DNA of 64,000 bases from Tetraselmis striata (lineage: Eukaryota; Chlorophyta; Chlorodendrophyceae; Chlorodendrales; Chlorodendraceae): contig VCJN01003357.1 of assembly GCA_006384855.1 (NCBI GenBank), positions 1 through 64,000 on the forward strand. The letters run 5' to 3'. Below the pieces are notes generated by a model that ran no database searches, had not been told where the DNA came from, and was given only the letters and a program-made list of their open reading frames with translations. The stretch's first letter is position 1. Every line of letters begins with the position of its first letter. Positions 12,248-60,203 of this stretch are shown in pieces. The translations under genes and the position numbers were made by a program.

Positions 12248-12283
12248 GTATACGCAAGGAACACTAGTATTCCTTGCGTATAC
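12248..12283. repeat. Perfect inverted repeat, 14-bp arms
   Basis: GTATACGCAAGGAA and its exact complement are separated by 8 bases. In the second copy of the block the right arm is missing (near 16435-16455), so the hairpin is either gained in copy 1 or lost in copy 2. Confidence 0.85.
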
Positions 12284-17666: not shown

Positions 17667-17725
17667 ATTCGAACCAGCGCAGAGAGGAATCGCGAGTGCA
17701 ACATGCAAGCCCCCTCTCCGCCACC
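17667..17725 (-). mobile_element. tRNA-derived SINE-like repeat, copy 2 of 3
   Basis: Counterpart of 13525-13595 in the second duplicated block; it has lost the bases just outside the B box. Confidence 0.4.
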
Positions 17726-36818: not shown

Positions 36819-37098
36819 CCCGTTATTGCTACTACCAACTACATCGCCCGGTCGATATCTGTCCACCTGTGTAAAACTCACACAGAAATTATAGGATATG
36901 CGGAGTAGCTATTTGCTGTATTAATCCTATACCGTTATGGGTCGACCACTATAGATCGACGAATATACATTGGATCGTCGATCCAATACACGCGATAAAT
37001 CCTGCCGTGTTGTCAAAATGCGGTAGAGGGGTAATGTTAATATTTGGCTTTGCGTGCGTTGTCACTGCGTGCTCTGTGCCCCTACATGCTATTGAACT

Positions 37099-37590
37099 AT
37101 GCATGTGACGTACCGATTCATCATATTATTCGTGACTGATATTCTGAACCTGGCGGGCACACCAGTGTTCTTCATCAACCTGGGTCAAATTGGTCCAACA
37201 GTCTTGCAAGAACCTTTTATCATGTCAGCTTGTTGGCAAAGCTGCAATCACATCATCTTGCGATTCCTGCTTCTACGCAATCAGACGCAATCAGAGCAGC
37301 TGCTGGAAAAGCCATTACCCCGCAAGAAGTTGTCTCGGTCTCCCAGAGGCAGTCACACAGAAGAAACCACCATATGCCACGTAAGGAAAGTGCGCCTGGA
37401 AATTACTGCTATCGGCGACCCTGTGAACACACCCGACTCACTGCCATCGCAGGTTTACCAACCAATACATCTTTCAAGTAAAGAGGAACTGGCATTTAAC
37501 GTTGCAAGCCATGGGAAGAAAGCTGAAGACCGGCAATCTGCATTCTCAGCGGATGCCTCGCATTTCATGTCTCAGGTTGGAAGCTGCTAG
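37099..37590 (+). CDS. Conserved open frame of unknown function, unit A
   Basis: A 163-codon frame (MHVTYRFIILFVTDILNLAG...) that is also open in unit B at 45052-45546, where one codon is added (GPT becomes GPPT). In unit C the frame is broken. I see no domain, and an alternative frame also stays open, so the case for coding rests only on an in-frame indel and may be chance. Confidence 0.25.
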   Translation: MHVTYRFIILFVTDILNLAGTPVFFINLGQIGPTVLQEPFIMSACWQSCNHIILRFLLLRNQTQSEQLLEKPLPRKKLSRSPRGSHTEETTICHVRKVRLEITAIGDPVNTPDSLPSQVYQPIHLSSKEELAFNVASHGKKAEDRQSAFSADASHFMSQVGSC

Positions 37591-37887
37591 CCGCAGGTGA
37601 CATACCTCCAACGGATGCTCGCCGCCCATGTCAGACGCATAATTTCATCTACTTGGTAGAGTTTCTATCCGGAGGGGAGCTTCTATCTCTTGCTTATTTG
37701 CCACCTGCTGACAGGTGTCCCTGCTGGCTCCGCTGCATGTTACTGTACGCAAACTGAAGCAGCCTACAGAAGGGGCAGGCACAACGCTGTTAAAGGTGTG
37801 ATCCTCTGTTGCGGTCAGAAGGCGATAGCCTGGAGTGGGGCTGTTGTCAGAGAGTGCGGCGATTGAACAAAGTTTGGCATTACTCCG

Positions 37888-38019
37888 CTACTGGGATGTG
37901 AGAGGTGCGCAAGTCGAAAGCCCCCACCTTCCTGCATACTCAGTCGCAAGCGTGTGAAAGTAGGGATGGATAGAGCCAGGCGGCTCATCCGCACCCACTT
38001 CACAGCCACTCATTACAGC
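37888..38019 (-). pseudogene. FLV2 3' exon remnant, unit A
   Basis: Matches the fourth exon of FLV2 in unit C, with the pyrimidine-rich TTGCAG acceptor at the same place and the GCEVGADEP and GSIHPYFHTLA segments preserved. Exons 1-3 are absent because of the A/B deletion. The frame closes at 37888 in this unit. Confidence 0.75.
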
Positions 38020-38160
38020 CTGCAATGGCAAAAGAGGTGAGGAAGTGAGTGACTGCTATATGCGTACTAGGAAAGGTATGCATGTGTACCGTTGCATTGT
38101 ACGCTGGCCGAGCGCGGGCAAAGTTCAACTTCTCGCCAACTTCATGTGGAAAGCGATCAG

Positions 38161-38515
38161 TGAAATAATTGCGCACTTTACCGGAGCTGGCACGGGAGCA
38201 GCTGGGCAAGCTGCGAGGGGCCAGTTTCGTAACGGCTGGTGGGATCGGCGGCGGGCAGGAGTTTGTCATTGACGCTCTCAGCCGGGAGATGGCAAGCTTA
38301 GCATTCAGCCGCTAACATTTCCAGACTGCCGTTACAGCTTTGGGCTGGCGGCTATCACTGGCTTTCCGCCCTTCTGTAGCCAAGGGGCAGTCCAAGCAGG
38401 CTGTAGTATTGAACAAAAGGAAACTCCAGGGCGCATACATCCCCAATTTGAGGCATTTGGGTATGAGCTTGGACGGCAGTTGGTTAACCTCATGACGGAT
38501 TCAACCCATGCTGAC
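38161..38515 (+). pseudogene. FLV1 3' half remnant, unit A
   Basis: Homologous to 57981-58347 of the intact gene: ELAREQLGKLRGASF, then TAGGIGGGQE and, after a shift of frame, FGLAAITGFPPFC. The 5' half with the signal peptide and flavin-phosphate loop is missing; the left breakpoint is at 38160/38161. Two bases are lost within the GVGIQP-coding region (GAGCTTAGC for GAGCGTAGGC), so the frame is also broken. Confidence 0.88.
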
Positions 38516-39048
38516 TGGTGCAGCGTGTTGGCTATGGCATTTGCTGCACAACATAAAGGTACGATTGTAACTGTAACTGTGAATTGCGTTCCGGACAAAA
38601 TTGGCCGACTTTAATTATCAAAAACTTCTGACTGCTGGGCAGACAGGCGCACAAGAGTTAGGATTGATTTATCTTTTGTGCAGCATATATTGACAGAATC
38701 AACAGCAGTCTTTACCTTCGCAGATTTGCCCATGAGTATATCAACATTGTAGGATCAGGAAGTTTTAATACACGCTTTGTCTCAAAACCACGCTCAGCAT
38801 CTGATGTATGATGTACGATTTGAACATATTGCATGCACGAATTCTGCCCAGAACAAAAAATGTGCAGTGCGTTAGGATCTATTGCTTGCAGCTGTTCCCA
38901 ATGCTTTGTATAATCATATACCATAGACCGCGGAGACAAGTATTTCACAACATTGTTTACAATGGTCTGTATTGCATACAGCTACGTTATCGACCGCATA
39001 AGTGTCCAGTTAATAGCGCTACGTCCATGTATGACATGGCTACATGGA

Positions 39049-39053
39049 TTACA
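39049..39053 (-). terminator. Candidate poly(A) signal of ELIP unit A
   Basis: TGTAA on the minus strand, 38 bp after the ELIP stop codon; conserved in unit B. Confidence 0.5.
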
Positions 39054-39090
39054 CGTCCACAAATTTATTGCTATGTGAATCTTAGTTTGC

Positions 39091-39639
39091 TTAGAAGAGA
39101 GGGCTGCCCTTGATGGCCTCGTACGCCAGCAAAGAGGCGAAGCCGATCATCGCAGCGCGACCGTTCAGCATCTCAGCGCCAGGGGTGAATGGACCGAACT
39201 TCATCTGCTTCTTGCCCTGCTTAGCCAAAGGGATCAGTGACGCGGTTGTTAAGAGAGCCACGACGAAGATCATCGGGCCGGGGATGGACGAGAACTGTGC
39301 GCCGACAGTCTGCCCGGTGGATAGCTCGGCTCCGAGAGCGGCAGCGAAGCCGAGCATCGCCAAGCGGCCGTTGATGACTTCCGGGGCTGGACCAGAGAAC
39401 GCCATAGCGTCACCTAGGGCGACGCCCTTAGGAGCGGGCGGCGGAGGAGGAGTCGCAGGGGCAGACTCAGCCTTAGGAGCCTCGACCTTGGGAACCTCGG
39501 CCTTGGACTTCTCGCCATCAGCTCGGACGACGAAGCGAGCGGGGCGGGCGGAAGCAGCCTTGCGAGGTCGCAGGCAGTGGGCAGGGCGCACGGCGCCACG
39601 GGCGGCGATGGCAAATTGAGAGGACATGACAGTTGCCAT
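39091..39639 (-). CDS. ELIP: Early light-induced protein (ELIP), array unit A
   Basis: A 182-aa single-exon thylakoid protein of the chlorophyll a/b-binding superfamily. ELIPs bind pigments transiently and protect photosystems under high light or cold. The start at 39639 is chosen because the upstream in-frame Met (39789) would run the frame through the TATA box. Residues 1-40 are a basic, Ala-rich chloroplast transit peptide ending VVRA. Residues 41-72 are an acidic then Pro-rich linker. Helix I (about 83-104) carries EVINGRLAMLGF, helix II (about 121-139) is GPMIFVVALLTTASLIPLA, and helix III (about 152-175) carries EMLNGRAAMIGF; the E..NGR motifs bind pigment and lock helices I and III. 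A TATA box lies about 92 bp upstream and a TGTAA signal 38 bp after the stop. Convergent with the FLV1 remnant. Intact. Confidence 0.95.
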   Translation of the reverse strand: MATVMSSQFAIAARGAVRPAHCLRPRKAASARPARFVVRADGEKSKAEVPKVEAPKAESAPATPPPPPAPKGVALGDAMAFSGPAPEVINGRLAMLGFAAALGAELSTGQTVGAQFSSIPGPMIFVVALLTTASLIPLAKQGKKQMKFGPFTPGAEMLNGRAAMIGFASLLAYEAIKGSPLF

Positions 39640-39730
39640 CGTGGTAGAAGGTTGGAGATTATAGTACGTGACCAAAGAGTGGTAACGAGGGCGGATATTG
39701 AAGATGGTGCCCCTATCAGAAGGTGGTGAC

Positions 39731-39741
39731 CCTTTATATAG
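39731..39741 (-). promoter_or_regulatory. TATA box of ELIP unit A
   Basis: Minus strand CTATATAAAGG, about 92 bp upstream of the start codon. The same box is present at 47681-47691 in unit B. Unit C has a TATATATA version near 59604-59616. Confidence 0.75.
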
Positions 39742-40159
39742 CCTGCAGTGTGTGTGCTTACTGTCGGCTCGCTGCAGTGGGGGCCGCACGAAGGCGCCGC
39801 AGCAATTCTAGAACTCCGAAAGCCACCCTGGGGCTCCCCTTCCGTGCTGTCTTCACTCTGCTGTCGACCGTCGGTTTCGTCGTTTCGAGCGCGAATTCCT
39901 GCCCGAAATTCGCGCCACGTCACTATAGGTATGCGTGCCAGCAGAATCTACCGAAAAGTGTAGCAATATGATGGTACGTCTAAGCATGTGCAAAGTACGA
40001 GAAACGGATACTATGGGGACAACTACAAGAATACCCGTCGACGAATAACAAATATTCGGCACCCGGAAGCGTCCCGCTGTCGTGGCAGCGTCGGCGCAAT
40101 ATGATAAATCCATGCCGCGACGACACCGCCACCGCCGAAGACATCGTCCTGGTACCGGT

Positions 40160-42117
40160 GTGAATTACAAAAAGGGCAGTTCCGCCCCCATAATTAGAAA
40201 ATCAGCACAGCAAGCCGCCTAAAAGCGGCCCGCATCCCGCATAAGGCGGGATGGATGAGTGATGCGCACACGGTTCAGAGTCCGGGCCACGCGTGCACGT
40301 GTGTGTGTGTGGGTGATCCTCGGACGTGCTGTGCAGCTTCAGCAACGGGATGGCAGACGAATCTGCGCCGTTTGATGAGGTAGCGAGCGCGCTCTCAAGC
40401 GGCCACCAAGCTCAGGACCCCGAGGAAATCTCTTGCGAGCAAGGCCTCCTGGTGAGCCCGGGTGATGCACCGAGTGCCCCGCGATGAGAGGGCACCCCGA
40501 TCCGCAGCCAAGCATGCGATACCACGCACTGGGCGGTGCACCCCCTTGCTCACCTCACCCACTGTGCCGAAGACCATTGATGCCCGTGTACTCCGACATA
40601 TCAAGGATGTCTCGAAGAGGACCGTTCTGTCTGGGCTCCGTGTTGTGCCACGCCGCATCCCGCGCAGCCAACCCCCGTTGTATGTCGCCCAACAGGGAGC
40701 GCTCAAATTGATCCATAGCCGTGGCCCGGGGCACTGAAGTGTACTTGACCCCGTACCGCATAGTCTTGAACTCCAGCAGCGTGGACTTCAAGCTCCGGGG
40801 ATCATAACTCCCGGTCACGACGTTGAACGCCGGAAGGGAGAGCTCTGCGTCCGGCACTAGGTCCTTGAGTTCATCCCTGGATACGGTGTTGCCGAGAGGC
40901 ACTGCCTGCTGGAACAAGTCATCCACATCCCGCCGTACCGCGATACCTAGGTCGTGAACACAGTGATCGCGGAAGGCATCTGCGATAGCGTCGTGCTGTA
41001 ACTACACGCCAGTGAGCGTCTCCAGGCGCCGGGAGGTTCATGAGCGCGTCGCCGTATAGGTCAACAGTGACGGGGTTGTGCTCCGTCGAGGGCAGAATGA
41101 TCTGGCACCCAACCACCGGGGCCAAGCACGAGCTAGGCAGAAAGAAGTACCCGGCAGCGACCTCCCGCAGCTCATGCGGAGTCATGGCTGTCCGCGCGGT
41201 GGGGATGGCCACTGTCCACATGCCTGACGCCGCGTCGAGCTGGTTGAACAAGATCCGTTCCCTACATGTGGCAGGGAGAGCGTACACCACATTTCGAAGC
41301 AGAGAGTTGGTGGCCCGGTCTAGAAATGTTGTCAGCTCCTTTTGCGAGCCCGACACAGCCTCCACTTCCCGCTCCATCTGGCGTGCATCTGCGTCGCCGA
41401 GATGGCCAACAGTAGTCGCTTGGAGGCGGCCCCACGCCTCGCGCATCTCCGCGGCGTAGCTGTCCGACCCATGAGCATCGTTTAGGAAGTGGTCATACTG
41501 GCGGGCCGCGGAAGAATTTGCGTTGAAGCTGCCTCGGCCAAGTACGGACCCGAGCTGTGGGTCGAAGAAACCAGGGGTGGGGGTGTTGGTGCCGGAGTTC
41601 CTAGTCAGGAACCTTGGGAGGATGGCATTCATGCAGCCGATGAAGGCGGCATCACGAACGGTAGCCATGCGGCGGATGCCAGCTCCCTTCAATCGAGTGG
41701 GGAGGTGAAGCATGCTGCGCGCCCTGGCCACTGCATCCTCGCTCAAGGTAGCCACCTCCGCTGCCATGGGGTCGGGGTCGTGCAAAAGCTCCGCCAAGAA
41801 ATCGGTGACCACCGGATTGGTGTCGGTGCCGTACGTGGAGGGATCAAAAGAGACCCCTAGCACCCGTTCGACCGCCGCGAGGATGGTGGCATCCACCGCC
41901 TCCGCAAAGGCCTCCACCTCGGACGGAAGACAATTGCGGAGCCAATACCCCGCCTTGTGTTGCATGCAATGCTTGAGCAGGGACCATGCGTGGTGATGCA
42001 AGCAAGGCGTGGGTGTACCGACGGCTTGGCTTGGCAGACATAAGCTTGCTCAGGCTAGCGTCCACCTCCTCTCGTAGCTCCTCCGCCTTGCCGCGCATGT
42101 ACGCCTGCAACCTATAT
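40160..42117 (-). mobile_element. LINE-1-family copy, unit A, with TSD
   Basis: Bounded by the 10-bp direct repeat TGGTACCGGT (40150-40159 and 42118-42127). The minus strand has a long coding region (40919-42001 and flanking frames) typical of the part following reverse transcriptase in algal LINE polyproteins: LPTRLKGAGIRRMATVRDAA, FLDRATNSLLRNVVYALPAT, PGDAHWRV. The 5' part with endonuclease and reverse transcriptase is absent, so it is a truncated, broken copy with a few interruptions. The 3' end reads GTAATTCACACC. Assignment to a LINE rests on the common 3' end, 5' truncation and target duplication, since no RT motif is visible. Confidence 0.65.
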
Positions 42118-42689
42118 TGGTACCGGTAGTAGTGACGACGACTCGCGATCAAATGCGATATGAAGTCCAATAGCATGTCAATGGTCATTGTACTTTGCGA
42201 TCCTTGTTCCCGCTATGCGGCGGCCCCTTTTGTAATCCGGGCTTACCTCTTTTGGCATGCCTTCTGACCCTTTTTTTCCGGTCAGTATGATGTCCGAACA
42301 CTTTGCACTAAAATCCTGTAACCTCCGCAGCTCACGGCTAATCGTATTGATTCCGGGTTGGGCGCCCTCCGCGGTCCGGTGATAAGGTGTGTGCAGGTAC
42401 TTTCTCCTGATGGAGCCAACGTCTGAATAACCCCGTGCAATCTCTTTTTGCCGAAACCGGAGATTTCCGTAATTCCGAAAAACATACCATTTGCTTCCGA
42501 TAGCGCTGGATAGATGCCTTATTAGCTGCCGTGCTACTTTGTCCCCGTTTAAATCATCCGAATCCCGTAACCCGAACATAGATGTATTTTCTTCCGGCGC
42601 CCCTGCGCAGTCTGATGAGTTCCGGATTTATTCTCATCCGTATCCGGTGGTGTTCGCCCACGAGGTTCTCGTCGTTGTCCGGGGGATCT

Positions 42690-42860
42690 GCGTTTATTTT
42701 TAAATGCCAAGCTTGATCTGTTTTTGTCTCCCGACTTAGTTGGGGTGATGTGGGTACCCTTCCTAGGTTCATCATACCCTGCCCTCAACTTCTGCCTCTC
42801 GCCCGCCTAGGCCACTGCTACTACCCTTGGGGCATGACACAGTTTTACGACCTATTTACT
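42690..42860 (+). repeat. Dispersed repeat, unit A
   Basis: Matches ELP4 intron 7 (27900-28085) and 51530-51690 in unit B. Unknown family. Confidence 0.7.
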
Positions 42861-43164
42861 GGTGCTGATGACTTCGCTGAAAAACACGTTGATCTTCCCC
42901 ATTTATGCCCCAATTTAGGCTATTCTTGCCCTTTTGGTGTGTATTTCGGCATTGATGTTGTTTGCAGTACCCTTCCCTGTATTCCAGTCGCTTGCCTTGC
43001 CTTGTTTTGTGGCTGGACTTGCCGGAATATAAACGGACCATATATATTTTCTTTGCATGGGGGTGACTTGATGTCATCTCCGTTTTCTAATCCTTGCCTC
43101 GCAGGGCGATCAAGACCGGGCGCAGCCCGTGCGATGGATGCAGCGCGTCGCCTGTGCATCGCCT

Positions 43165-44053
43165 TCACATTGTGAGAGGCATGTGACCATCTGGCGCCGT
43201 GGAGGAACTCAGACAGAAAATGAGACATGGCCAAACGCTATGCCTCCGCCGTTGGCTACTGCCCCGGAAATCTGTACTTAGCGGGATGTGCAAACATTTT
43301 TTGCTGAATGTTGGCATCGCCATCATCATGGACGCAAGACGATGCGTAACGGGAGCAGATATGCGTTCCCAAGGGACTTGCCGCATGCGTTATCGCTATT
43401 GGCGAACGCCATGCGTGAGGTGGGGGTGCCCAAACACGCCAACCCCGTGTATGCTGCGAGCGTCGTCAAACATTTGAGCGGATCCAAGCGTTACCGGGTG
43501 AGCTGGCCTACAGCAGTTGCGGTGCAGCTGTGCCTTTGGACTACGCAACCTTGGTGGACCTGGTCCAATTCGTGGACAGCAACCTGATTTCGCGGGCCAC
43601 CACTGATGGGGTGAGCATTGCCGTTGTGCATCACATGTTTACATGGCGTTGTATTTGTGGGGTGCCGCCGCTTGCGGCTTTGAGGCTGGCACCATGGAAC
43701 TGACATGGTTCCTGATGCACGGCGCGGATCTGTTGCCCGCCTGGGAGCTGACTGTTGTTGGTCGCCTGAACGCGCGGATGATCGTGTTTATTTTTGTGGG
43801 GAGAGGGGGGGGGGGTCGCTGCTGCACCCCGAGAAACCTGCCGGCTCACAGCGGCGTCGTGGGGCTGGGTCTGCTGCCACCCGGTAGCGAGCTGCTCTGC
43901 TCGCTCTGTTGCGTGGGCAGTTAGGCTGCTGCCATGGCTTACGCCAGATGGCCGTCGGTAGATTTTCATTTCGTCCCAGGAAGGTTGAACGTCCTGCCGG
44001 TTTCCAAGCGCATGGCATGAGCATTGCCGCCATGAATTTCCGTATTAAAGGGC
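43165..44053 (+). mobile_element. Tyrosine-recombinase element fossil, unit A
   Basis: Plus-strand coding-like pieces match those of unit B (52010-52950): ALSLLANAMREVGVPKHA, LDYATLVDLVQFVDSN and LTWFLMHGADLLPAW. The copy stops abruptly at 44053 against the minisatellite, before the C-terminal block that identifies the family in unit B. It looks broken in several places. Crypton-like or DIRS-like origin cannot be decided. Confidence 0.4.
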
Positions 44054-44279
44054 ACTCGAGCCCACTATAGGTCTGAAGTAAACAAACAACTCTTTCACTG
44101 CCCGGATTTTCACGCTCAGAATTGCCATTTGGTGACGTTTAAGGGGTCTGCAAGTCCCAAAACATGTTTTCAAACTTTGTAGCCCAATGTTAGGCCCCAT
44201 AACAGGCACCTAGGTGCAACCCATACTGCCTCAGACTCGAGCCCACTATAGGTCTGAAATAAATAAACAACTCTTCGTT
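44054..44279. repeat. 181-bp minisatellite, about 1.2 units (unit A)
   Basis: Same unit as 53160-53702, but only about one copy. Confidence 0.85.
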
Positions 44280-45051
44280 ATAGCGTTTCCCCAAATCAGG
44301 AGACTTTTTTGCTCGCGATGCAAGGAAATTTCTGGGATTCCGCAGTAATCACTGCTTTGGCACAATGCCTATCTTTCCTCCCACACCTCCCGCGCTGCGT
44401 CGTGGCAGTAGTGCATTGGAAGGACTTCAATATGGGTCATTCTCATGGTGAAGCTTGGGTCATATAGCGCGTCGCGTGATATGCTACCAATGGCCTACAA
44501 TTTTAGGCCCTTTTGCGCACTGACAAAACTGTAGGGGTAGCGGCGCGTGCACGAATGCGATGCCACGTCATCTCCCAAATGGCACGACACTCCCACAATT
44601 TATTTATTTACTATCATATCATCCGTGCGTAAAAGCTTGGGGGCATGCGCATCCCCATGAAGCTGAAACGCGTGCAATCGCATTGTGCAAGTTTCTGTTG
44701 ACAAGCGGCAAGCGTTTTTTATTTCACTGTCAGCGGAAAAAGAGCACTACAGAAAATGATGCATCAGCGCGACGTTTTGGAGGGTGCGCTGCAACAAAGG
44801 TCATGGGACCTATGCTTCAGTATGAGTAGAAGACTATACGTAGTTTGGGCTATATGCTAGTGTGCAGCGATATGCCCACATGCAGATTCGTGGAGGGGCA
44901 AACTTTTGATGGAACCATGTACACTAGATCGATCCAATACATGCGATAAATCCTGCCGTGTTGTCAAAATGCGGTAGCAAGGTGTAAAGTTATTATTTGG
45001 CTTTGCGTGCGTTGTCACTGCGTGCTTTGCGCCCCTACATGCCATTGAATT

Positions 45052-45546
45052 ATGCATGTGACGTACCGATTCATCATATTATTCGTGACTGATATTCTGA
45101 ACCTGGCGGGCACACCAGTGTTCTTCATCAACCTGGGTCAAATTGGTCCTCCAACAGTCTTGCAAGAACCTTTTATCATGTCAGCTTGTTGGCAAAGCTG
45201 CAATCACATCATCTTGCGATTCCTGCTACTGCGCAATCAGACGCAATCAGAGCAGCTGCTGGAAAAGCCATTACCCCGCAAGAAGTTGTCTCGGTCTCCC
45301 AGAGGCAGTCACACAGAAGAAACCACCATATGCCACATAAGGAAAGTGCGCCTGGAAATTACTGCTATCGGCAACCCTGTGCACACACCCCACTCACTGC
45401 CATCGCAGGTTTACCAACCAATACATCTTTCAAATAAAGAGAAACTGGCATTTAACGTTGCAAGCCATGGGAAGCAAGCTGAAGACCGGCAATCTGCATT
45501 CTCAGCGGATGCCTCGCATTTCATGTCTCGGGTTGGAAGCTGCTAG
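45052..45546 (+). CDS. Conserved open frame of unknown function, unit B
   Basis: A 164-codon counterpart of 37099-37590 with one inserted codon. Function unknown, coding status doubtful. Confidence 0.25.
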   Translation: MHVTYRFIILFVTDILNLAGTPVFFINLGQIGPPTVLQEPFIMSACWQSCNHIILRFLLLRNQTQSEQLLEKPLPRKKLSRSPRGSHTEETTICHIRKVRLEITAIGNPVHTPHSLPSQVYQPIHLSNKEKLAFNVASHGKQAEDRQSAFSADASHFMSRVGSC

Positions 45547-45715
45547 CCGCAAGTGACATACCTCAAACAGATACTTGCCGCCCATATTAGACGCATAATT
45601 TCATCTACTTGGTAGAGTTTCTATCCGGAGGGGAGCTCCTATCTCTTGCTTGCCACCTGCTGACAGGTGTCCCTGCTGGCTCCGCTGCATGTTACTGTAT
45701 GCAAATTGAAGCAGC

Positions 45716-45970
45716 CTACAGAAGGGGAAGCACAACGCTGTTAAAGGTGTGATCCTCTGTTGCGGCCAGAAGGCGATAGCCTGGAGTGGGGCTGTTGTCA
45801 GAGAGTGCGGCGATTGAACAAAGTTTGGCATCAATTTGCCGCTGGGATGTGAGAGGTGCGCAAGTCGAAAGCCCCCACCTTCCTGCATACTCAGACGCAA
45901 GCGTGTGACAGTAGGGATGGATCGAGCCAGCCGGCTCATCCGCACCCACTTCACAGCCACGCAATACAGC
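45716..45970 (-). pseudogene. FLV2 3' exon remnant, unit B
   Basis: Counterpart of FLV2 exon 4 (RGCEVGADEPAGSIHPYCHT). The upstream exons are deleted. The frame stays open to 45716 but has no start context. Confidence 0.75.
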
Positions 45971-46110
45971 CTGCAATGGCAAAAGAGGTGAGGAAGTGAG
46001 TGACTGCTATATGCGTACTAGGAAAGGCATGCATGTGTACCGTTGCATTGTACGCTGGCCGAGCGCTGGCAAAGCTCAACTTCTCGCCAACTTCATGTGG
46101 AAAGCGATCA

Positions 46111-46465
46111 GTGAAATAATTGCGCACATTACCGGAGCTGGCACGGGAGCAGCTGGGCAAGCTGCGAGGGGCCAGTTTCCTAACGGCTGGTGGGATTGGC
46201 GGCGGGCAGGAGTTTGTCATTGACGCTCTCAGCCAGGAGATGGCGAGCTTAGCATTCAGCCGCTAACATTTCCAGACAGCCGTTAAAGCTTTGGGCTGGC
46301 GGCTATCACTGGCTTTCCGCCCTTCTGTAGCCAAGGGGCAGTCCAAGCAGGCTGTAGTATTGAACAAAAGGAAACTCCAGGGCGCATACATACCTAATTT
46401 GAGGCATTCGGGTATGAGCTTGGACGGCAGTTGGTTACCCTCAAGACGGATTCAACCCATACTGA
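46111..46465 (+). pseudogene. FLV1 3' half remnant, unit B
   Basis: Homologous to 57981-58347 of intact FLV1 with the same left breakpoint as unit A, so the deletion predates the A/B duplication. It carries the same 2-bp loss and further substitutions. Confidence 0.87.
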
Positions 46466-50070: not shown

Positions 50071-50079
50071 TGGTCAGGT

Positions 50080-50942
50080 GTGAATTACAAAAAGGGCAGT
50101 TCCCCAGAATTAGAAAATCAACACAGCAAGCCGCCTAAAAGCGGCCCGCATCCCGCATAAGGCGGGATGGATGAGTGATGCGCACACGGTTCAGAGTCCG
50201 GGCCACGCGAGCACGTGTGTGTGTAGGTGATCCTCGGACGTGCTATGCAACTTCAGCAACGGGATGGGAGACGAATCTGCGCCGTCTGATGAGGCAGCGA
50301 GCACGCTCTCGAGCGGCCACCAAGCTCAGAACCCCGAGGAAATCTCTTGCGAGAAAGGCCTCCTGGTGAGCCCGGGTGATGCACCGAGTGCCCCACGATG
50401 AGAGGGCACCCCGGTCCGCAGCCAAGCATGCGATACCACGCACTGTGCGGTGCACCCCCTTGCTCACCTCACCCACTGTGCCGAAGACCATGCCCGTGTA
50501 CTCCGACATATCAAGGATGTCTCGAAGAGGACCCTTGTGTCCGGGCTCTGTGTTGTGCCACGCCGCATCCCGCGCAGCCAACCCCCGTTGTATGTCGCCC
50601 AACAGGGAGCGCTCAAACCGATCCACAGCCGTGGCCCGGGGCACTGAAGTGTACTTGACCCCGTACCGCATAGTCTTGAACTCCAACAGCGTGGACTTCA
50701 AGCTCCGGGGATCATAGCTCCCGGTCACGACGTTGAACGCCGGAAGGGAGAGCTCTGCGTCCGGCACTAGGTCCTTGAGCTCATCCCTGGGTACGGTGTT
50801 GCCGAGAGGCACTGCCTGCTGGAACAAGTCATCCACCTCCCGACGTACTGCGATACCTAGGTCGTGAACACAGTGATCGCGGAAGGCATCTGCGATAGCG
50901 TCGTGCTGTACACGCCAGTGAGCGTCTCCATGCAACCTATAC
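50080..50942 (-). mobile_element. LINE-1-family copy 2, unit B, internally deleted
   Basis: Begins with the family 3' tail and ends at the same 5' boundary as its neighbour (TGCAACCTATAC), followed by TGGTACCGGT (50943-50952). About 1.1 kb of the middle is missing compared with unit A. The head-to-tail pair suggests unequal recombination at the target repeats rather than two insertions. Confidence 0.65.
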
Positions 50943-51410
50943 TGGTACCGGTAGTAGTGACGACGACTTGCGATCAAATGCGATATGAAGTCCAATAGCA
51001 TGTCAATGGTCATTGTACTTTGCGATCCTTGTTCCCGCTATGCGGCGGCCCCTTTTGTAATCCGGGCTTACCTCTTTTGGCATGCCTTCTGACCCTTATT
51101 TTCCGGTCAGTATGATGTCCGAACACTTTGCACTAAAATCCTGTAACCTCCGCAGCTCACGGCTAATCGTATTGATTCCGGGTTGGGCGCCCTCCGCAGT
51201 CCGGTGATAAGGTATGTGCAGGTACCTTTCTCCTGATGGAGCCAACGTCTGAATAACCCCGTGCAATCTCTTTTTGCCGAAACCGGAGATTTCCGTAATT
51301 CCGAAAAACATACCATTTGCTTCCGATAGCGCTGGATAGATGCCTTATTAGCTGCCGTGCTACTTTGTCCCCGTTTAAATGATCCGAATCCCGTAACCCG
51401 AACACAGATG

Positions 51411-51419
51411 TAGCGACTA
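51411..51419 (+). repeat. TAGCGACTA 9-mer, present as an insertion relative to unit A
   Basis: Unit A reads GATGTATTTTC and unit B reads GATGTAGCGACTATTTTC at the homologous place, that is GCGACTA added at a TA. Exact copies of the 9-mer or its complement also occur at 592, 613, 1845, 1950, 3182, 20263, 32897, 36521 and 63214. Confidence 0.8.
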
Positions 51420-51529
51420 TTTTCTTCCGGCGCCCCTGCGCAGTCTGATGAGTTCCGGATTTATTCTCATCCGTATCCGGTGGTGTTCGCCCACGAGGTT
51501 CTCGTCGTTGTCCGGGGGATCTGCGTTTA

Positions 51530-51690
51530 TTTTTAAATGCCAAGCTTGATCTGTTTTTGTCTCCCGACTTAGTTGGGGTGATGTGGGTACCCTTCCTAGG
51601 TTCATCATACCCTGCCCTCAACTTCTGCCTCTCGCCCGCCTAGGCCACTGCTACTACCCTTGGGGCATGACACAGTTTTACGACCTATTT
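51530..51690 (+). repeat. Dispersed repeat, unit B
   Basis: Same repeat as 42690-42860 and ELP4 intron 7. Confidence 0.7.
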
Positions 51691-52009
51691 ACTGGTGCTG
51701 ATGACTTCGCTGAAAAACACGTTGATCTTCCCCATTTATGCCCCAATTTAGGCTATTCTTGCCCTTTTGGTGTGTATTTCGGCATTGATGTTGTTTGCAG
51801 TACCCTTCCCTGTATTCCAGTCGCTTGCCTTGCCTTGTTTTGTGGCTGGACTTGCCGGAATATAAACGGACCATATATATTTTCTTTGCATGGGGGTGAC
51901 TTGATGTCATCTCCGTTTTCTAATCCTTGCCTCGCAGGGCGATCAAGACCGGGCGCAGCCCGTGCGATGGATGCAGCGCGTCGCCTGTGCATCGCCTTCA
52001 CATTGTGAG

Positions 52010-52950
52010 AGGCATGTGACCATCTGGCGCCGTGGAGGAACTCAGACAGAAAATGACATGGCCAAACGCTATGCCTCCGCCGTTGGCTACTGCCCCGGAA
52101 ATCTGTACTTAGCGGGATGTGCAAACATTTTTTGCTGAATGTTGGCATCGCCATCATCATGGACGCAAGACGATGCGTAACGGGAGCAGATCTGCGTTCC
52201 CAAGGGACTTGCCGCATGCGTTATCGCTATTGGCGACCGCCATGAGTGAGGTGGGGGTGCCCAAACACGCCAACCCCGTGTATGCTGCGAGCGTCGTCAA
52301 ACATTTGAGCGGATCCAAGCGTTACCGGGTGAGCTGGCCTACGGCAGTTGCGGTGTAGCTGTGCCTTTGGACTACGCAACCTTGGTGGACCTGGTCCAAT
52401 TCGTGGACAGCAACCTGATTTCGCGGGCCACCACTGATGGGGTGAGCATTGCCGTTGTGCATCACATGTTTACATGGCGTTGTATTTGTGGGGTGCCGCC
52501 GCTTGCGGCTTTGAGGCTGGCTCCATGGGATTGACATGGTTCCTGATGCACGGCGCGGATCTGTTGCCCGCCTGGGAGCTGACTGTTGTTGGTCGCCTGA
52601 ACTCGCGGATGATCTTCTTTTTTTTTGGAGGGGGGGGGGGGGGAGGGGTCGCTGCGGCACCAAGAGAAACCTGCCGGCTCACAGCGGCGTCGTGGGGCTG
52701 GGGCTGCTGCCGCCCGGTAGCGAACTGCTCTGCTCGCTCCGTTGCTTGGGCAGTTAGGCTGCTGCCATGGCTTACGCCAGATGGCCGTCGGTAGATTTTC
52801 ATTTCGTCCCAGGAAGGTTGAACGTCCTGCCGGTTTCCAAGCGCATGGCATGAGCATTGCCGCCATGAATTTCCGTATTAAAGGGCACTTGCGAGCCGCG
52901 GGGCTGTATCAAGGTCGCACTTCGTGTGAAACGTTGCCGTTTGGAGCATG
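52010..52950 (+). mobile_element. Tyrosine-recombinase element fossil, unit B
   Basis: Coding-like pieces in order: MAKRYASAVGYCPGNLYLAG, MSEVGVPKHANPVYAASVVK, LDYATLVDLVQFVDSN, LTWFLMHGADLLPAW, then MSIAAMNFRIKGHLRAAGLY followed by QGRTS. The last block resembles the region before the His-x-x-Arg of tyrosine recombinases in Crypton- or DIRS-type elements ('HL.AAGLY.G.T.H'). The copy is fossil and broken in several places; the family is not certain and no ends were found. Confidence 0.4.
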
Positions 52951-53159
52951 ATGTTGTTGCGGGAGGTGAGAGCGTTACACATGCGTCCCGTGGGCGCCAT
53001 CGCCATGTGAGAACTCCATTGGGTTCTGTGCACCCTGGCTGCCATCGGGACCGGCTACACATGGATATGGTCTCAAGACATTGAGGCGGATTGAGGCGTA
53101 CGAGGTCGCGTTGGACAGCGCATGGCAAAAGCGCTTTCATGTATTAAGGGAACTTATAC

Positions 53160-53702
53160 TGCCCGGATTTTCACGCTCAGAATTGCCATTTGGTGACGTT
53201 TAAGGGGTCTGCAAGTCCCAAAACATGTTTTCAAACTTTGGGGCCCAATGTTAGGCCCCATAACAAGCACCTAGGTGCGACCCATACTGCCTCAGACTCG
53301 AGCCCACTATAGGTCTGAAGTAAACAAACAACTCTTTCACTGCCCGGATTTTCACGCTCAGAATTGCCATTTGGTGACGTTTAAGGGGTCTGCAAGTCCC
53401 AAAACATGTTTTCAAACTTTGTAGCCCAATGTTAGGCCCCATAACAAGCACCTAGGTGCGACCCATACTGCCTCAGACTCGAGCCCACTATAGGTCTGAA
53501 GTAAACAAACAACTCTTTCACTGCCCGGATTTTCACGCTCAGAATTGCCATTTGGTGACGTTTAAGGGGTCTGCAAGTCCCAAAACATGTTTTCAAACTT
53601 TGTAGCCCAATGTTAGGCCCCATAACAGGCACCTAGGTGCAACCCATACTGCCTCAGACTCGAGCCCACTATAGGTCTGAAATAAATAAACAACTCTTCG
53701 TT
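53160..53702. repeat. 181-bp minisatellite, three units (unit B)
   Basis: TGCCCGGATTTTCACGCTC recurs at 53160, 53341 and 53522, an exact period of 181 bp with very few changes. Unit A has about one unit at the same place. Confidence 0.95.
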
Positions 53703-55133
53703 ATAGCGTTTCCCCAAATCAGGAGACTTTTTTGCTCGCGATGCAAGGAAATTTCTGGGATTCCGCAGTAATCACTGCTTTGGCACAATGCCTATCTTTC
53801 CTCCCACACCTCCCGCGCTGCGTCGTGGCAGTAGTGCATTGGAAGGACTTCAATATGGGTCATTCTCATGGTGAAGCTTGAGTCATATAGCGCGTCGCGT
53901 GATATGCTACCAATGGCCTACAATTTTAGGCCCTTTTGCGCACTGACAAAACTGTAGGGGTAGCGGCGCGTGCACGAATGCGATGCCACGGCATCTCCCA
54001 AATGGCACGACACTCCCACAATTTATTTATTTACTATCATATCATCCGTGCGTAAAAGCTTGGGGGCATGCGCATCCCCATGAAGCTGAAACGCGTGCAA
54101 TCGCATTGTGCAAGTTTCTGTTGACAAGCGGCAAGCGTTTTTTATTTCACTTTCAGCGGAAAAAGAGCACTACAGAAAATGATGCATCAGCGCGACGTTT
54201 TGGAGGGTGCGCTGCAACAAAGGTTATGGGACCTATGCTTCAGTATGAGTAGAAGACTATACGTAGTTTGGGCTATATGCTAGTGTGCAGCGATGTGCCC
54301 ACATGCAGATTCGTGGAGGGGCAAACTTTTGATGGAACCATGTACACTATATCGATCCAATACATGCGATAAATCCTGCCGTGTTGTCAAAATGCGGTAG
54401 CAAGGTGTAAAGGTATTATTTGGCTTTGCGTGCGTTGTCACTGCGTGCTCTGCGCCCCTACATGCTATTGAATTCTGCATGTGACGTACGGATTCATCAC
54501 ATTATTCGAGACTGATATTCTGAACCTGGCGGGCACACCAGTGTTCTTCATCAACCTGGGTCAAATTGGTCCTCCAACAGTCTTGCAAGAACCTTTTATC
54601 ATGTCAGCTTGTTGACAAAGCTGCGATCACATCATCTTGCAATTCCTGCTACTACGCAATCAGAGCAGCTGCTGGAAAAGCCACTACCCCGCAACAAGTT
54701 GTCTCGGTCTCCCAGAGGCAGTCACACAGAAGAAACCACCATATGCCACGTTACGAAAGTGCGCCTGAAAATTACTGCTATCGGCGACCCTGTGCGCACA
54801 CCCCGACTCACTGCCATCGCAGGTTTACCAACCAATACATCTTTCAAATAAAGAGGAACTGGCATTTAACGTTGCAAGCCATGGGAAGAAAGCTGCAGAC
54901 CGGCAATCTGCATTCTCAGCGGATGCCTCGCATTTCATGTCTCGGGTTGGAAGCTGCTAGCCGCAGGTGACATACCTCCAACGGATGCTCGCCGCCCATG
55001 TCAGACGCATAATTTCATCTACTCGGTAGAGTTTCTATCCGGAGGGGAGCTTCTATCTCTTGCTTATTTGCCACCTGCTGACAGGTGTTCCTGCTGGCTC
55101 CGCTGCATGTTACTGTACGCAAACTGAAGCAGC

Positions 55134-56567
55134 CTATAGAAGGGGCAGGCATAACGTTGTTAAAGGTGTGATCCTCTGTTGCGGCCAGAAGACGAAAGTC
55201 TGGAGTGGGCTTGTTGTCAGTGCGGCGATTAAACAAAGTTTGGCATTACTCCGCCATTGGGATGTGAGAGGTGCGCAAGTCGAAAGCCCCCACCTTCCTG
55301 CATACTCAGACGCAAGCGTGTGAAAGTAGGGATGGATAGAGCCAGGCGGCTCATCCGCACCCACTTCACAGCCACTCATTACAGCCTGCAATGGCAAAAG
55401 AGGTGAGGGAGTGAGTGACTGCCATATGCGTACTAGGAAGGGCATGCATGTGTACCGTTGCATTGTACGCTGGCGGAGCGCTGGCAAAGCTCACCTTCTC
55501 GCCAACTTCATGTGGAAAGCGATCAGTTTGACCCACCTGACCCGGGTGACAGAGCACTGCAACGGTTCAGAAATCCACCAGCAGGGCAACTGCCAATCAC
55601 GTTTAGCTGCAAGATCTGTACTCAGCCCCCACTATGTTCTAGGGAGCCGGTCGCACAAACAAACGTATCCGCTGAGACCAATCGCACCTGACAAAACGGG
55701 GGTTGCCCAGTGATGGCCACAAGCCCAGTGGAGAAGTTCCAATTGTCTCTGAAAGAGGGCACCGTAAACCCGGCGTTCTATCACAGAGAAGCCAGTTGTT
55801 AGGCCTATCAGCAAATCTCACCAGGCAGCAGCACAGTAAGTCAGTATCGGGGGTTGGACAGCCATTTACGTACTTGGAGCCTGGTGTTAGTGGCCTGGAT
55901 TATCGCCTCCGCACCCGCCGACACGGCTCCACCTGTTGCGAACCCAGCGGCTAAGCGCCCACGCAGCACCGGGTGCTTCTGCGCGAGCTGTGATGGGCAC
56001 AAATACGACAAGGGCTAAGCGACACGTGAGTAATCCTGAAGCTGATTTTCTGCCAATCAGGTGCAGCACTCACGGTCTTCCATGGGCAACAAATATCACT
56101 CGACGCCCGGGATGCCCCGCCTCGCGAAAGCCAGGGATTCAGTGATGTGTTCTTATCGCGCTTCTGTAGTAGCATTTCAAAGAAGGCAACGGGTCTCGCA
56201 CCTGTGCCAGCTGCTCGGTGAATAGCGCCACAGCCGCGCTCGTCTCCCCCTTCAGCGTCGGCCCCCCTACTAGCACCACCTCTGCCCAGTGAGCTTCCTC
56301 CACGCCGCACTGCCGCACCGGCAGGACGCGGAGCCGCTCCTCACCAAGCCCTGCCGCTCTCATGCCACGCGCAAGTGCGAGCGCCAAGCTCTTGGTGTGC
56401 CCCGATGTCGACTCGTACGCAATGAGAACGTTGGGCTCAGCCGGCTCCGCCTGGGCCGTTGCCAGCGCATGCCCCTCCAGCCCGCGGCGAGACGCCCATC
56501 CGGCGGTGGCACCATCCACCGCCAGGTACAGCCATACTAGCAGCGGCAGTAATACGCTTGACGCCAT
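55134..56567 (-). CDS. FLV2, flavodoxin-fold protein with signal peptide, four exons
   Basis: Predicted exons (minus) are 56567-56202, 55987-55874, 55777-55688 and 55385-55134; all GT..AG, all phase 0, about 273 aa. The start at 56567 opens a signal peptide (ASSVLLPLLVWLYLAVDG); a Met 54 codons upstream would bury it. Residues 46-61 hold the first strand and flavin-phosphate loop (NVLIAYESTSGHTKSLA). Then AEVVLVGGPTLKGE, exon 2 LRGRLAAGFATGGAVSAG, exon 3 GFTVPSFRDNWNFSTGLVAI and TGQPPFC, and exon 4 GCEVGADEPPGSIHPYFHTL align segment by segment with FLV1. The fold is that of WrbA-like quinone reductases and flavodoxins. The C-terminal tail after EYAGR differs between array units, so an alternative donor (AAG|GTGGGG) and another last exon are possible. 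Probably a lumenal or secreted redox protein (inference). Confidence 0.7.
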
Positions 56568-57058
56568 GTTCCCCCGACGCTTCCGCCCCTTGCACGATAT
56601 ACCGATAGTATGGCACTGCGTGCCTCGCCGGCTTTCAAGCTTGCTGCTGTAACCCCCACGAACTGCGGGGTCGTCGATACGAAGCTTGCGATCCACTGCA
56701 ACGGACAGTCGGACACAGCACCGCTGCACCGATACCAGTAGGGATCGCCCGATAGGCAGGATGGGACAGTGGCAGAAGGGAATGTCAGCCCGCCACGTAA
56801 TTTCGAACTAAGTACCACTCGCGACAGCACCAGCAGCGACGTGTGTCGGTGGAAGGGGATACCACGTTGCGATCTCCGGTGATAGCCGCTAAGTGAGATT
56901 ATGTCGACAGCATGTCGCGCGGGCACGGGTGTTACTACCGGGGTGCTACACCTACAGTAGCAGAGTTGATCGATTATTACTGCTACATGGTCGGCATTCT
57001 CCCTGTAGTAGCCCATTCATTGTATGAGTACACAATTCCGGGTTTATAATATAGGTAT

Positions 57059-57093
57059 TATAAACGCCTTCTGCTGCTAGCTCATGTAATTAA
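57059..57093 (+). mobile_element. 35-bp LINE-2 3' tail with 13-bp target-site duplication
   Basis: The segment contains 25 bases identical to the 3' end of the LINE-2 copy at 18364-19432 (CTTCTGCTGCTAGCTCATG and neighbours). It is flanked by ATAATATAGGTAT at 57046-57058 and 57094-57106. It lies in the roughly 880 bp between the divergent FLV2 and FLV1 starts. Confidence 0.75.
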
Positions 57094-57448
57094 ATAATAT
57101 AGGTATGACCTGTACGCACGTACTACGGTATTGTCTTGCGGATCTCGCAATAAGAAACTACAGAATAAGATTGGAATCATTACGCCGATACGATATATGT
57201 ATTTCGAGCTAGAACGTTGCTCCATTATGATGGTGTCCTACAGGTACAGGGTAGTCATCGGGTGACAAGCCCCAAGACGCGCTGCCCCGCGGCCTGCTCA
57301 GCGCGAATCTCGGGACGTGTGGCATGCCGAGCGCGGATGACGGCGTAGCTCCGAGGCGCTGAAACGATAACGCATCACAGCCAGTTCGCAGTTACTGACC
57401 AACGCGATACAGTGACAGGGCACGCACCTGGATTGATAGCCACCACAC

Positions 57449-58348
57449 ATGTCAACGTCTACAGTGGGGGCCACGGGACCGATGGACGCGAGCCCGAGGC
57501 GGACGCTGCTCTCGCTGCTGCTGCTTCTGCTGGTAGCCTCGCGGGTGCGGCCGCATGGGGATGACGAAGGCCCGCAAGTATCCTTTTTTGTAGACTCATG
57601 GCAGCAGCATGATGCAGCGCCCCAGGGGCTGACTGGTGTGCTAACTTTCGGCCTAGAAGATAGTGTCGCGAGTAGCAGCAGGGGGCTTGGCCACGGACAC
57701 CACGGCAGAGGCGAGGAGGACGACCACCATGGCCACGACCCCAGCTCCAGCGGCCTGAGAGGCGGGAGCATCCCGCATATCCTCATAGTCTACGCCTCGC
57801 AGACTGGACATACGGAGCAGCTAGCACATGTGGTGCTCAACGGCGCTCTGGACCTTATCCCTTCGTGCCATATTGAGGCAGTTCCATTGGCCAGAGCAAA
57901 CCACAGCGTTCTAACTGAGTGGGCTGACGTGTTGGTGCTTGGCTCCCCAGTCATCGACGGCCAGCCTGCATCAGCTTTGGTGAACTATTTGCGCACAGTA
58001 CCGGAGCTGGCACGGGAGCAGCTGGGCAAGCTGCGAGGGGCCAGTTTCGTAACGGCTGGTGGGATCGGCGGCGGGCAGGAGTTGGTCATTGACACTCTCA
58101 ACCGGGAGATGGCGAGCGTAGGCATTCAGCCGCTAACATTTCCAGACTGCCGTTACAGCTTTGGGCTGGCGGCTATCACTGGCTTTCCGCCCTTCTGTCG
58201 CCAAGGCGCAGCCCAAGCAGGCTGTAGTATTGAACAAAGCGAAATTCCAGGGCGCATACATCCTCAATTTGAGGCATTTGGGTACGAGTTTGGACGGCAG
58301 TTGGTCAATCTCATGACGGATCCAAACGCTCCTGCAAACCCATATTGA
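57449..58348 (+). CDS. FLV1, intact flavodoxin-fold (WrbA-like) protein with signal peptide
   Basis: A 299-aa intronless frame. A second Met at residue 12 (57482) directly precedes a signal peptide (SPRRTLLSLLLLLLVASRV) and may be the true start. A low-complexity His/Asp/Glu-rich stretch follows (GHGHHGRGEEDDHHGHD, about 81-97) and could bind metal. The flavodoxin domain begins near residue 109: HILIVYASQTGHTEQLA contains the flavin-phosphate loop (115-122), then ADVLVLGSPVIDGQ, ASFVTAGGIGGGQELVIDTL, and GLAAITGFPPFCRQ, with Cys residues in C..GAAQAGC. The family reduces quinones or carries electrons with FMN. It is divergent from FLV2 and convergent with an ELIP copy. A TGTAA signal sits 52 bp after the stop. 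The signal peptide is unusual for WrbA-like proteins and suggests an ER-routed or lumenal role (inference). Confidence 0.85.
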   Translation: MSTSTVGATGPMDASPRRTLLSLLLLLLVASRVRPHGDDEGPQVSFFVDSWQQHDAAPQGLTGVLTFGLEDSVASSSRGLGHGHHGRGEEDDHHGHDPSSSGLRGGSIPHILIVYASQTGHTEQLAHVVLNGALDLIPSCHIEAVPLARANHSVLTEWADVLVLGSPVIDGQPASALVNYLRTVPELAREQLGKLRGASFVTAGGIGGGQELVIDTLNREMASVGIQPLTFPDCRYSFGLAAITGFPPFCRQGAAQAGCSIEQSEIPGRIHPQFEAFGYEFGRQLVNLMTDPNAPANPY

Positions 58349-58399
58349 CCGGTGCAGCGCGCAGGCCATGGCACTTGCTCTACACTAGAAACATACGAT

Positions 58400-58404
58400 T
58401 GTAA
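58400..58404 (+). terminator. Candidate poly(A) signal of FLV1
   Basis: TGTAA, 52 bp after the stop codon; also conserved beside the FLV1 remnants of units A and B. Confidence 0.5.
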
Positions 58405-58967
58405 CTATGACGTGTGTTTGGCAAAACTTTGGCTGACTCTTATTATCAAGAACTGCCGACATCTGGGCAGAATGGCACTCCACAGCATTTATCTGTTGTT
58501 TAGTATATATTCGCAATATCAATAGCGGTCTGGACTTTAGACGACATGCGCCCATGATTATGCAACAGACTCACAGACTCAGGGAGTTTTGTACATGCTT
58601 TTTTTCCAGCAATTGTCGCACTCAGCATATGATATTGAAACTGCTATTGTCCCAGTGCAAGCATCTCAGGCACACTTTTCAGCTACTGCATGTCCACACT
58701 CATTAAAATAAAGTGTGGTATGCAAGGATTCCTTATTTGCAGCTGTCCTCCATGCTTTGTACCATAGCTCATAACTTGACTTGCGGAATACTTATGTTGC
58801 GACATTGTTTACAAAGGTTTGTACTCTGTACGGCCACGTCACTGCTGCAGTTTCCACAACCTCGCAGGTCAATGGCGTAGTTAGCGCTACGTCAATAATA
58901 ACATCGTGTTATTGGATCTTTGACTTCACACGTCCACAAATTTATTGCTGTGTCTATCTACATCCTA

Positions 58968-59502
58968 TTAGAAGAGAGGGCTGCCCTTGAAGGCCTCGTA
59001 AGCAAGCAGAGAGGCGAAGCCAATCATCGCCGCGCGGCCATTCAACATCTCAGCGCCAGGGGTGAAGGGCCCGAACGTCGTCTCCTTCTTGCCCTGCTTG
59101 GCAGAGGGATCAGAGACGCTGTCGTGAAGAGGGCTACGACGAAGATCATCGGGCCGGGGATGGACGAGAACTGTGCGCCGACAGTCTGTCCAGTGGACAG
59201 CTCGGCTCCAAGAGCGGCGGCGAAGCCGAGCATTGCTAGGCGGCCGTTGATGACCTCGGGAGCGGGACCGGAGAACGCCATCGCGTCACCTAGGGCGACG
59301 CCCTTAGGAGCGGGCTGCGGCGGAGGAGTCGGAGAGGGCAGCCTCGGTCTTGAGCGCCTCGGTCTTGGGCTCCTCGGCCTCAGCCCGGACGACGAAGCGA
59401 GCGGGGCGGAACGGAGGCAGCCTTGCGGGGTCGCAGGACAGAGGCAGGGCGCACGGCGCCACGGACAACGACGGAGGAGCGAACGGACATAACGGTCGAC
59501 AT
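58968..59502 (-). pseudogene. ELIP pseudogene, array unit C
   Basis: Clear homologue of the unit A gene along its length, from ATG 59502 (MSTVMSVRSSVVVRGAVRP) to the TAA at 58968. Frame is lost at least three times: an extra base in the transit-peptide region (59415-59425), one in the Pro-rich linker (59325-59345) and a missing base after helix II (59095-59110). Helices I and II (EVINGRLAMLGF, PMIFVVALFTTASLIPL) remain in one frame; helix III is in another. Either a dead copy or, less likely, sequence errors. A TATA-like stretch remains upstream. Confidence 0.8.
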
Positions 59503-60148
59503 GTCGCCCGGCAGTGTGGATAGCGGAGACAAATAACAGAGGACTAAAATAATAGAAGCGAATGATGGAAGACTGTTAATTGTTCACTTCAAGGTGGTGA
59601 TCATATATATATAGCCTGCAGCGTGTGTGGGCTTTCTCTCGGATCGCTGCATTGGGGCCGCATAAGGGCGCCGCAGCCGTGTTCCAGAACTCCGAAAGCC
59701 AACCTGGGGCTCCCCTTCCGTGCTGTCTTCACTCTGCTGTCGACCGTCGGTTTCGTCGTTTCGAGCGTGATTTTCTGCCCGAAATTTGCGCCACGTCACT
59801 ATAGGTATGCGTGCCAGCAGAATCTCCCGAAAAGTGTAGCAATATGATGGTACGTCTATGTATATGCGAAGTACGAACCACGGATACTATCGGGACAAGT
59901 ACAAGAACACCCGTCGACGAACAACGACAGACTGCATTCGTCGGCACTCGGAAGCGTCGCGCTGTCGTGGCAGCGTCATTTATATGATCAGTCCATGACG
60001 CGACGACACCTCTACTGGTACCTGTACCGCCGAAGACATCTACTTTACTGGTAAAAGGAAAGTAAAAGTAAAGTACTTTACTGGTGCCGGTATTAGTTAA
60101 TAGTCCACGTGACGACGACTCGCGATCATGTACTACTACCACAACCTG

Positions 60149-60203
60149 TGTGAATTACAAAAAGGGCAGTTCCCCATAATTAGAAAATCAACACAGCAAG
60201 GCG
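60149..60203 (-). mobile_element. LINE-1 3' tail, unit C
   Basis: Only the first 55 bp of the LINE-1 tail remain where units A and B carry about 2 kb. A second short tail starts at 60307 (GTGTGAATTACAAAAG). Confidence 0.6.

Follow-up and report, generated by a model that had tools for sequence, protein, structure and literature searches.

How does a tandem array come to hold three copies of a gene cassette, none of which has kept every gene? The question is raised by the green alga Tetraselmis striata, in positions 1-64000 (hereafter, the window) of the 86,511-bp contig VCJN01003357.1, part of an assembly of 224 Mb in 2,903 contigs. There, a cassette of two flavodoxin-like genes (FLV2 and FLV1) and one ELIP gene, whose product would be a three-helix thylakoid pigment-binding protein of photoprotection, occurs three times in succession. 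The original prediction explained this as one triplication by unequal recombination that had raised ELIP dosage while the partner genes stayed single-copy. We believe that the cassette was probably duplicated long ago and that an unequal exchange took place more recently, with the copies losing genes in a complementary manner.

Self-BLAST of the window and unit-level BLAST displayed three units in direct orientation. Unit 1 (U1; 36978-44926, ~7.9 kb, delimited by self-BLAST) has lost most of the flavodoxin-like pair and carries ELIP1 followed by a nest of repeats; unit 2 (U2; 44929-54349, ~9.4 kb, BLAST and event analysis) is a recent copy of U1 whose first ~120 bp are U3-like; and unit 3 (U3; 54352-60128, ~5.8 kb, BLAST) has kept the pair and carries a broken ELIP. 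The sizes are unequal because the repeat nest sits between the cassettes in U1 and U2. The right end of U3, at ~60128, is fixed by an exact match, an 18-bp flank common to U1 at 42134, whereas the BLAST limits of the whole repeat (36978-60205) extend over 62 further bases (60144-60205) that correspond to the end of a long interspersed nuclear element (LINE). U1 and U2 were 96.8% (5,162 columns), 97.7% (1,969) and 99.4% (873) identical, and U1 and U3 94.3% (1,190 columns) and then 77.3% (2,078 gap-rich columns). Chance similarity is excluded, since ten pairs of unrelated stretches from the window, aligned by the method used for the unit blocks, reached only 38-48%. Searched against the assembly, a 1-kb query from the unit start had three matches, all on this contig. 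These results confirm that the mosaic tandem array is real, and they agree with the original prediction in the number of units, in the limits of the repeat (36979-60203, no more than two bases off), in the order FLV2 (minus), FLV1 (plus), ELIP (minus), which holds in the three units, and in the complementary loss, by which U1 and U2 have an open ELIP plus flavodoxin remnants and U3 the pair plus a broken ELIP.

The loss on the flavodoxin side can be traced to one junction. A stretch of 2,454 bp in U3 (55528-57981, limits that may shift by 2 because of a GT microhomology) has no counterpart in U1 or U2, where the equivalents of 55527 and 57980 are fused with a 2-bp (GT) overlap. The deletion removed FLV2 exons 1-3, the intergenic stretch, which presumably held the promoters of both genes, and approximately the first 177 codons of FLV1. 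What persists in both left units is FLV2 exon 4 (37927-38019 in U1 and 45878-45970 in U2, minus strand, with lengths transferred from U3) and the C-terminal part of FLV1, from about codon 178 (38160-38503 in U1 and 46111-46454 in U2, plus strand). Since U1 and U2 retain pieces of both genes at the junction, we rejected the reading of the flavodoxin-like stretch as an insertion into U3; and since the junction is common to U1 and U2, a single event ended both partner genes before these units split.

The repeats between the cassettes add a second marker of order. In U1, a 5'-truncated LINE-like element (40150-42127, minus strand) is flanked on both sides by a 10-bp target-site duplication, TGGTACCGGT; in U2, the same 10-bp repeat lies outside the element, around a nested pair that includes a second truncated copy present only in this unit (50070-50930, minus strand). 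An exact-match search of the 86.5-kb contig located the 18-bp right flank of the site at 42134 and 60111 and nowhere else, and in U3 this flank stands beside a single, by eye slightly different, copy of the target with no element between. Because the site is filled in U1 and U2 and unfilled in U3, the LINE-like insertion is later than the first duplication but earlier than the second. The element appears to be LINE-like from its truncation, its terminal repeat, its copy number (2,789 first-look candidates in the assembly, 40 of them scored) and an FNADDG stretch, which we take to be a reverse-transcriptase motif; no Pfam family was found in it, either in the window frames or in a longer copy. 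Two other repeats separate U1 from U2. Among the 40 candidates scored for each, the one at 42153-44062 was on four other contigs and the one at 44099-44914 at 34 other places. The repeat left of U3 contains a short array of about three 181-bp units (53158-53698), and its counterpart in U1 (44054-44275) has little more than one. A search for RNA families yielded none at gathering score.

The ages of the copies are not compatible with a triplication in one step. The synonymous divergence (dS) between the ELIPs of U3 and U1 is 0.37 and that between those of U1 and U2 is 0.03, a more than tenfold difference for which we rejected such an event. As to how U2 was added, the 1.18-kb unit start is informative. 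It contains 83 two-state events (columns in which all three units differ are omitted from this count), 35 of them shared by U1 and U2, 30 by U1 and U3, and 18 by U2 and U3, and their distribution is uneven: up to U1 position 37097 the U2+U3, U1+U2 and U1+U3 events number 7, 1 and 2, and beyond it 11, 34 and 28, so that U2+U3 events are 7 of 10 in the first 120 bases and 11 of 73 afterwards. The best break falls between 37097 and 37099 (p=0.0038 over the 53 U2+U3 and U1+U2 events, from 20,000 shuffles of the labels in which the best break was sought anew each time). Left and right of it, identity is 97.6% and 94.6% for U2/U3, 93.4% and 96.5% for U1/U2, and 94.2% and 96.1% for U1/U3. The inserted unit thus begins as the downstream unit (44929-45051) and continues as the upstream one, as expected from a crossover of the start of U3 with that of U1 on the other chromatid, which we infer at the right end of the U3-type segment; the 99.4% identity of the repeats left of U2 and of U3 fits this reading. 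The hybrid start directly supports the unequal recombination that had been predicted, but it is not unique evidence, as conversion could mimic it.

Identity is also mosaic along the units. When U1 and U3 are compared, the unit start is 95.9% identical, the FLV1 remnant 93.9%, the 0.5 kb of intergenic DNA that follows 65.2%, the ELIP 85.2% and the region upstream of the ELIP 81.5%, with a drop at ~38510, whereas between U1 and U2 identity stays at 95.7-98.8% across blocks. Copies of the same age should not differ in this way, so the left part was likely shaped by gene conversion or an earlier exchange. A history that accommodates these observations would start with a long-ago tandem duplication of the FLV2-FLV1-ELIP cassette that produced U3 and the ancestor of U1 and U2. 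In the left copy, the one 2.45-kb microhomology deletion would then have taken away the greater part of both flavodoxin-like genes, and the space between the copies would have been filled by the LINE-like element and other repeats. The second left-type unit, U2, was probably added at a later time, when the unit starts of the left and right copies, which are similar, underwent unequal crossover. The left 1.5 kb would have been homogenised by conversion or earlier exchange, an event whose order relative to the deletion is tentative, and the ELIP of the right unit would have decayed.

The ELIP genes themselves bear on what was gained. ELIP1 (39094-39639, minus strand) and ELIP2 (47044-47589, minus strand) are open frames of 182 amino acids that have 7 differences in 549 sites and do not vary in length (dS 0.028; nonsynonymous divergence, dN, 0.008). 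ELIP3 (58968-59502, minus strand) is broken by three length changes with respect to ELIP1 (+1, -14 and -1), each of them frameshifting. Outside the array, and absent from the original prediction, lies ELIP4 (60734-61264, plus strand), open and inverted, with a single in-frame length change (-15) and little similarity to ELIP1-3 beyond the coding part. The loss of ELIP3 looks recent because its core has few amino-acid changes (dN/dS against ELIP1 of 0.04 from codon 76 on), and sequencing error at the frameshift sites is possible. Against a PF00504 cut-off of 22.3 bits, ELIP1 scored 43.0, ELIP4 46.9 and, in the genome search, ELIP2 32.5. The three transmembrane helices and the plastid transit peptide of an ELIP are putative here, being judged by eye. 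Both copies of the light-harvesting complex (LHC) motif E..NGR.AM.GF are present in ELIP1, ELIP3, ELIP4 and ELIP5, a locus on another contig whose N-terminus aligns poorly (with one +4 there) and whose frame is open over residues 11-182. ELIP2 also has both copies, the first with a Gly-to-Arg change; Gly occupies this place in nine of the ten ELIP-like loci examined, and Arg only in ELIP2. Genome-wide, there are at least ten ELIP-like loci (12 rows, with 150 of 344 candidates scored), one of them broken, and two (L027 and L028) are possibly one gene on two haplotypes. Light-harvesting genes are numerous in this genome (63 PF00504 rows), and five of them with near-identical domain scores at L010 and L011 (contig C1767, 222-281 kb) are a possible further tandem family. 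One light-harvesting protein had PDB 7d0j, 9is4 and 6kac as its best single-domain matches, and 7d0j and 6kac are Chlamydomonas structures.

The rise in ELIP dosage put forward in the original prediction is not supported: the recent event added ELIP2, but ELIP3 is broken, so that the array has two open ELIPs, the same number as the first duplication would have left, provided that neither copy was broken at that stage. The absence of a net gain on that assumption, the Arg of ELIP2 and the presence of at least ten ELIP-like loci genome-wide all speak against the array having been retained because extra ELIP protects from light or cold stress. Such a benefit, which would be compatible with the unequal-exchange mechanism, is unlikely, with some points in its favour: ELIP arrays accompany desiccation tolerance in land plants according to the available text of PMC8558194, Chlamydomonas ELIP3 aids survival in high light and cold according to that of PMC9916820, and the dN/dS of ELIP1-ELIP2 is 0.27, a value based on 7 changes only.

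Several observations weigh against the history proposed here. The hybrid start is based on 10 events and was spotted before being tested, and conversion of the start of U2 alone would look much alike. In the unit start, identities of 95.9% (U1-U3) and 96.2% (U1-U2) are nearly equal, and therefore the history of exchange is more tangled than one crossover. As for the LINE-like insertion site, the contig contains one further occurrence of the 10-bp repeat, at 63763, and U3 has its own 62-bp LINE end just right of the unfilled site. The ELIP tree leaves the order of ELIP3, ELIP4 and ELIP1/2 unsplit, the three possible pairings having 11, 8 and 8 shared sites, and with dS of 0.372 (ELIP1-ELIP3), 0.416 (ELIP1-ELIP4) and 0.460 (ELIP3-ELIP4); as the tree gives no order, these lineages may have split at about one time. 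Finally, four of seven contig pairs compared elsewhere in the genome were 96.9-99.2% alike over the full 3.2-3.5 kb fetched, and therefore some haplotypes may have been left unmerged in the assembly, with U2 possibly an allele of U1. These pairs (L006/L007, L013/L014, L017/L018 and L027/L028) may represent haplotypes, a second strain or recent duplicates.

If so, U2 would be the U1 of the other haplotype or of a second strain, misjoined in tandem by the assembler at the repeated unit start. The identity of U1 and U2 is within the range of those contig pairs, a join inside the unit start would likewise yield a hybrid start, and the available text of PMC11457085, on a snow alga, cautions that the extent of duplication in the genomes of cold-adapted algae may have been overestimated. 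The LINE-like insertion exclusive to U2 and its 30 private unit-start events are compatible with both the tandem-copy and the haplotype readings. However, the sequence of another haplotype is not evident around the array, since neither its flanks nor the flavodoxin-like stretch within it gave a second full copy in the assembly: this was the case for a 2-kb piece to the left, for a 2-kb piece to the right (two other rows, 62 bp each) and for the flavodoxin-like stretch (41 other rows, all under 50 bp), and another left piece, of 2.5 kb, matched itself plus short dispersed sequences only. We consider a misjoined haplotype unlikely on these grounds.

Slightly less likely still is that the U1 block was duplicated by a replication-based or end-joining process to give U2 and that the first 120 bp of U2 were then converted from U3, a course of events that coincides with the unequal-exchange history save for the step that originates U2. 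The mosaic identities do suggest that conversion works in the array, and the 2,454-bp deletion, with just 2 bp of microhomology, indicates that end joining acts here too. Yet the U1/U2 and U2/U3 junctions are at the same place, next to a common repeat that is 99.4% identical over 873 bp, which one crossover in the unit starts explains in one step.

The partner genes are intact only in U3. FLV1 (57449-58345, plus strand) is a single open exon of 299 amino acids with a putative signal peptide recognised by eye. FLV2 (55293-56567, minus strand) was modelled, by eye and by alignment with FLV1, as four exons (56567-56202, 55987-55874, 55777-55688 and 55385 to ~55293, the 3' end being approximate) separated by three introns with GT-AG ends. 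The start codons of the two genes point apart, with 881 bases between them, and two-sequence BLAST (E 6e-28) aligned 178 residues of the exon chain of FLV2 with FLV1 at 32% identity. Both proteins contain a C-terminal PPFC...GC...PG.IHP stretch and the pair an S-x-[TS]-G-H-T stretch that is presumably the FMN (flavin mononucleotide) phosphate loop. Both resemble the flavodoxin PDB 2ark (E 4.5e-6 for FLV1). With a Pfam Flavodoxin_1 cut-off of 25 bits, FLV2 scored 30.6, above it, and FLV1 18.0-19.3, below it. Their likeness to WrbA-type quinone oxidoreductases is distant and falls under every NCBIfam cut-off listed, and none of the flavodoxin/WrbA equivalog cut-offs was reached (best, 35.4 bits versus 141) with these models, which are built for bacteria and archaea. 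By eye, the N-termini look like secretory signals and not like plastid transit peptides. In its photosynthetic sense, the term flavodoxins of the original prediction is therefore not supported for them, and we suggest that they may be secreted or endomembrane FMN redox proteins. A flavodiiron identity was rejected, as neither has a metallo-beta-lactamase Pfam domain, and a single-sequence structure prediction of FLV1 had a mean predicted local distance difference test score of 36.9, too low for use of the fold. The prediction that the partner genes are single-copy holds so far as sequence searches can tell, and the pair appears to be so: genome protein searches found one full FLV1 plus the two array remnants (5 rows) and one match for FLV2 exon 1 (1 row), and the DNA stretch of U3 had one full match. 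Neither gene was among the 17 rows of a genome-wide search for the flavodoxin family, and therefore both are strongly divergent. It is improbable that the cassette was a true module, with a head-to-head pair of putatively secreted flavodoxin-like redox proteins plus an ELIP, whose copies divided labour in such a way that the left units, having lost the pair and the stretch between, became ELIP suppliers and the right unit retained the redox pair but not its ELIP.

Other features were noted in the neighbourhood. Self-BLAST displayed a second, independent tandem duplication at 11341-20259 (92.5% over 2.9 kb and 89% over 0.86 kb), with a long frame at its left edge (11266-12072) that had no Pfam match. 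To the left of the array, the frame at 34633-35340 has a weak RimK-like ATP-grasp match (19.1 bits; cut-off, 21), and ~3.6 kb right of ELIP4 there is a frame with an AhpC/TSA-type antioxidant domain (L038:844-1788; 41.3 bits; cut-off, 27).

The FLV2-FLV1-ELIP cassette is not treated in the titles or abstract openings found in open-licence literature, and its parts can be compared with known systems. FLV1 and FLV2 share with the flavodoxin/WrbA-type NAD(P)H:quinone oxidoreductase fold (2ark; NF002999) the S-x-[TS]-G-H-T stretch and a distant similarity over the domain, but they miss all NCBIfam cut-offs and have a secretory-like N-terminus and a PPFC...GC...PG.IHP stretch of their own. The two LHC motifs of the ELIPs (EIVNGRLAMLGF, ELLNGRAAMIGF) have the form seen in C. 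reinhardtii ELIP(2) (PMC9916820, Table 1); the motif table in the available text of that work gives Gly, Ala or Ser at the place where ELIP2 has Arg, and shows no Arg. Tandem ELIP copies are also what the array has in common with those of resurrection plants (VanBuren et al. 2019, as cited in PMC8558194), which, by the available text of PMC8558194, average 20.7 ELIPs, mostly in large tandem arrays, versus 3.1 in sensitive species. Here, in contrast, the array has two open ELIPs and a broken one, and a three-gene cassette was copied rather than the ELIP alone; with at least ten loci genome-wide and no large expansion of the resurrection type (~20 ELIPs), the ELIP set is modest. As for the duplicates of cold-adapted Chlamydomonadales, the accessible part of PMC11457085 describes many near-identical copies, including light-harvesting genes, while the array here is mosaic instead. 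ELIP copy counts overstate dosage when copies are broken or have a possibly damaging change. The array is an ordinary case of birth and decay of tandem genes rather than a system of a new kind, but it is a good worked example, as a deletion, a retroelement insertion, an unequal exchange and homogenisation can be ordered at one locus from one sequence.

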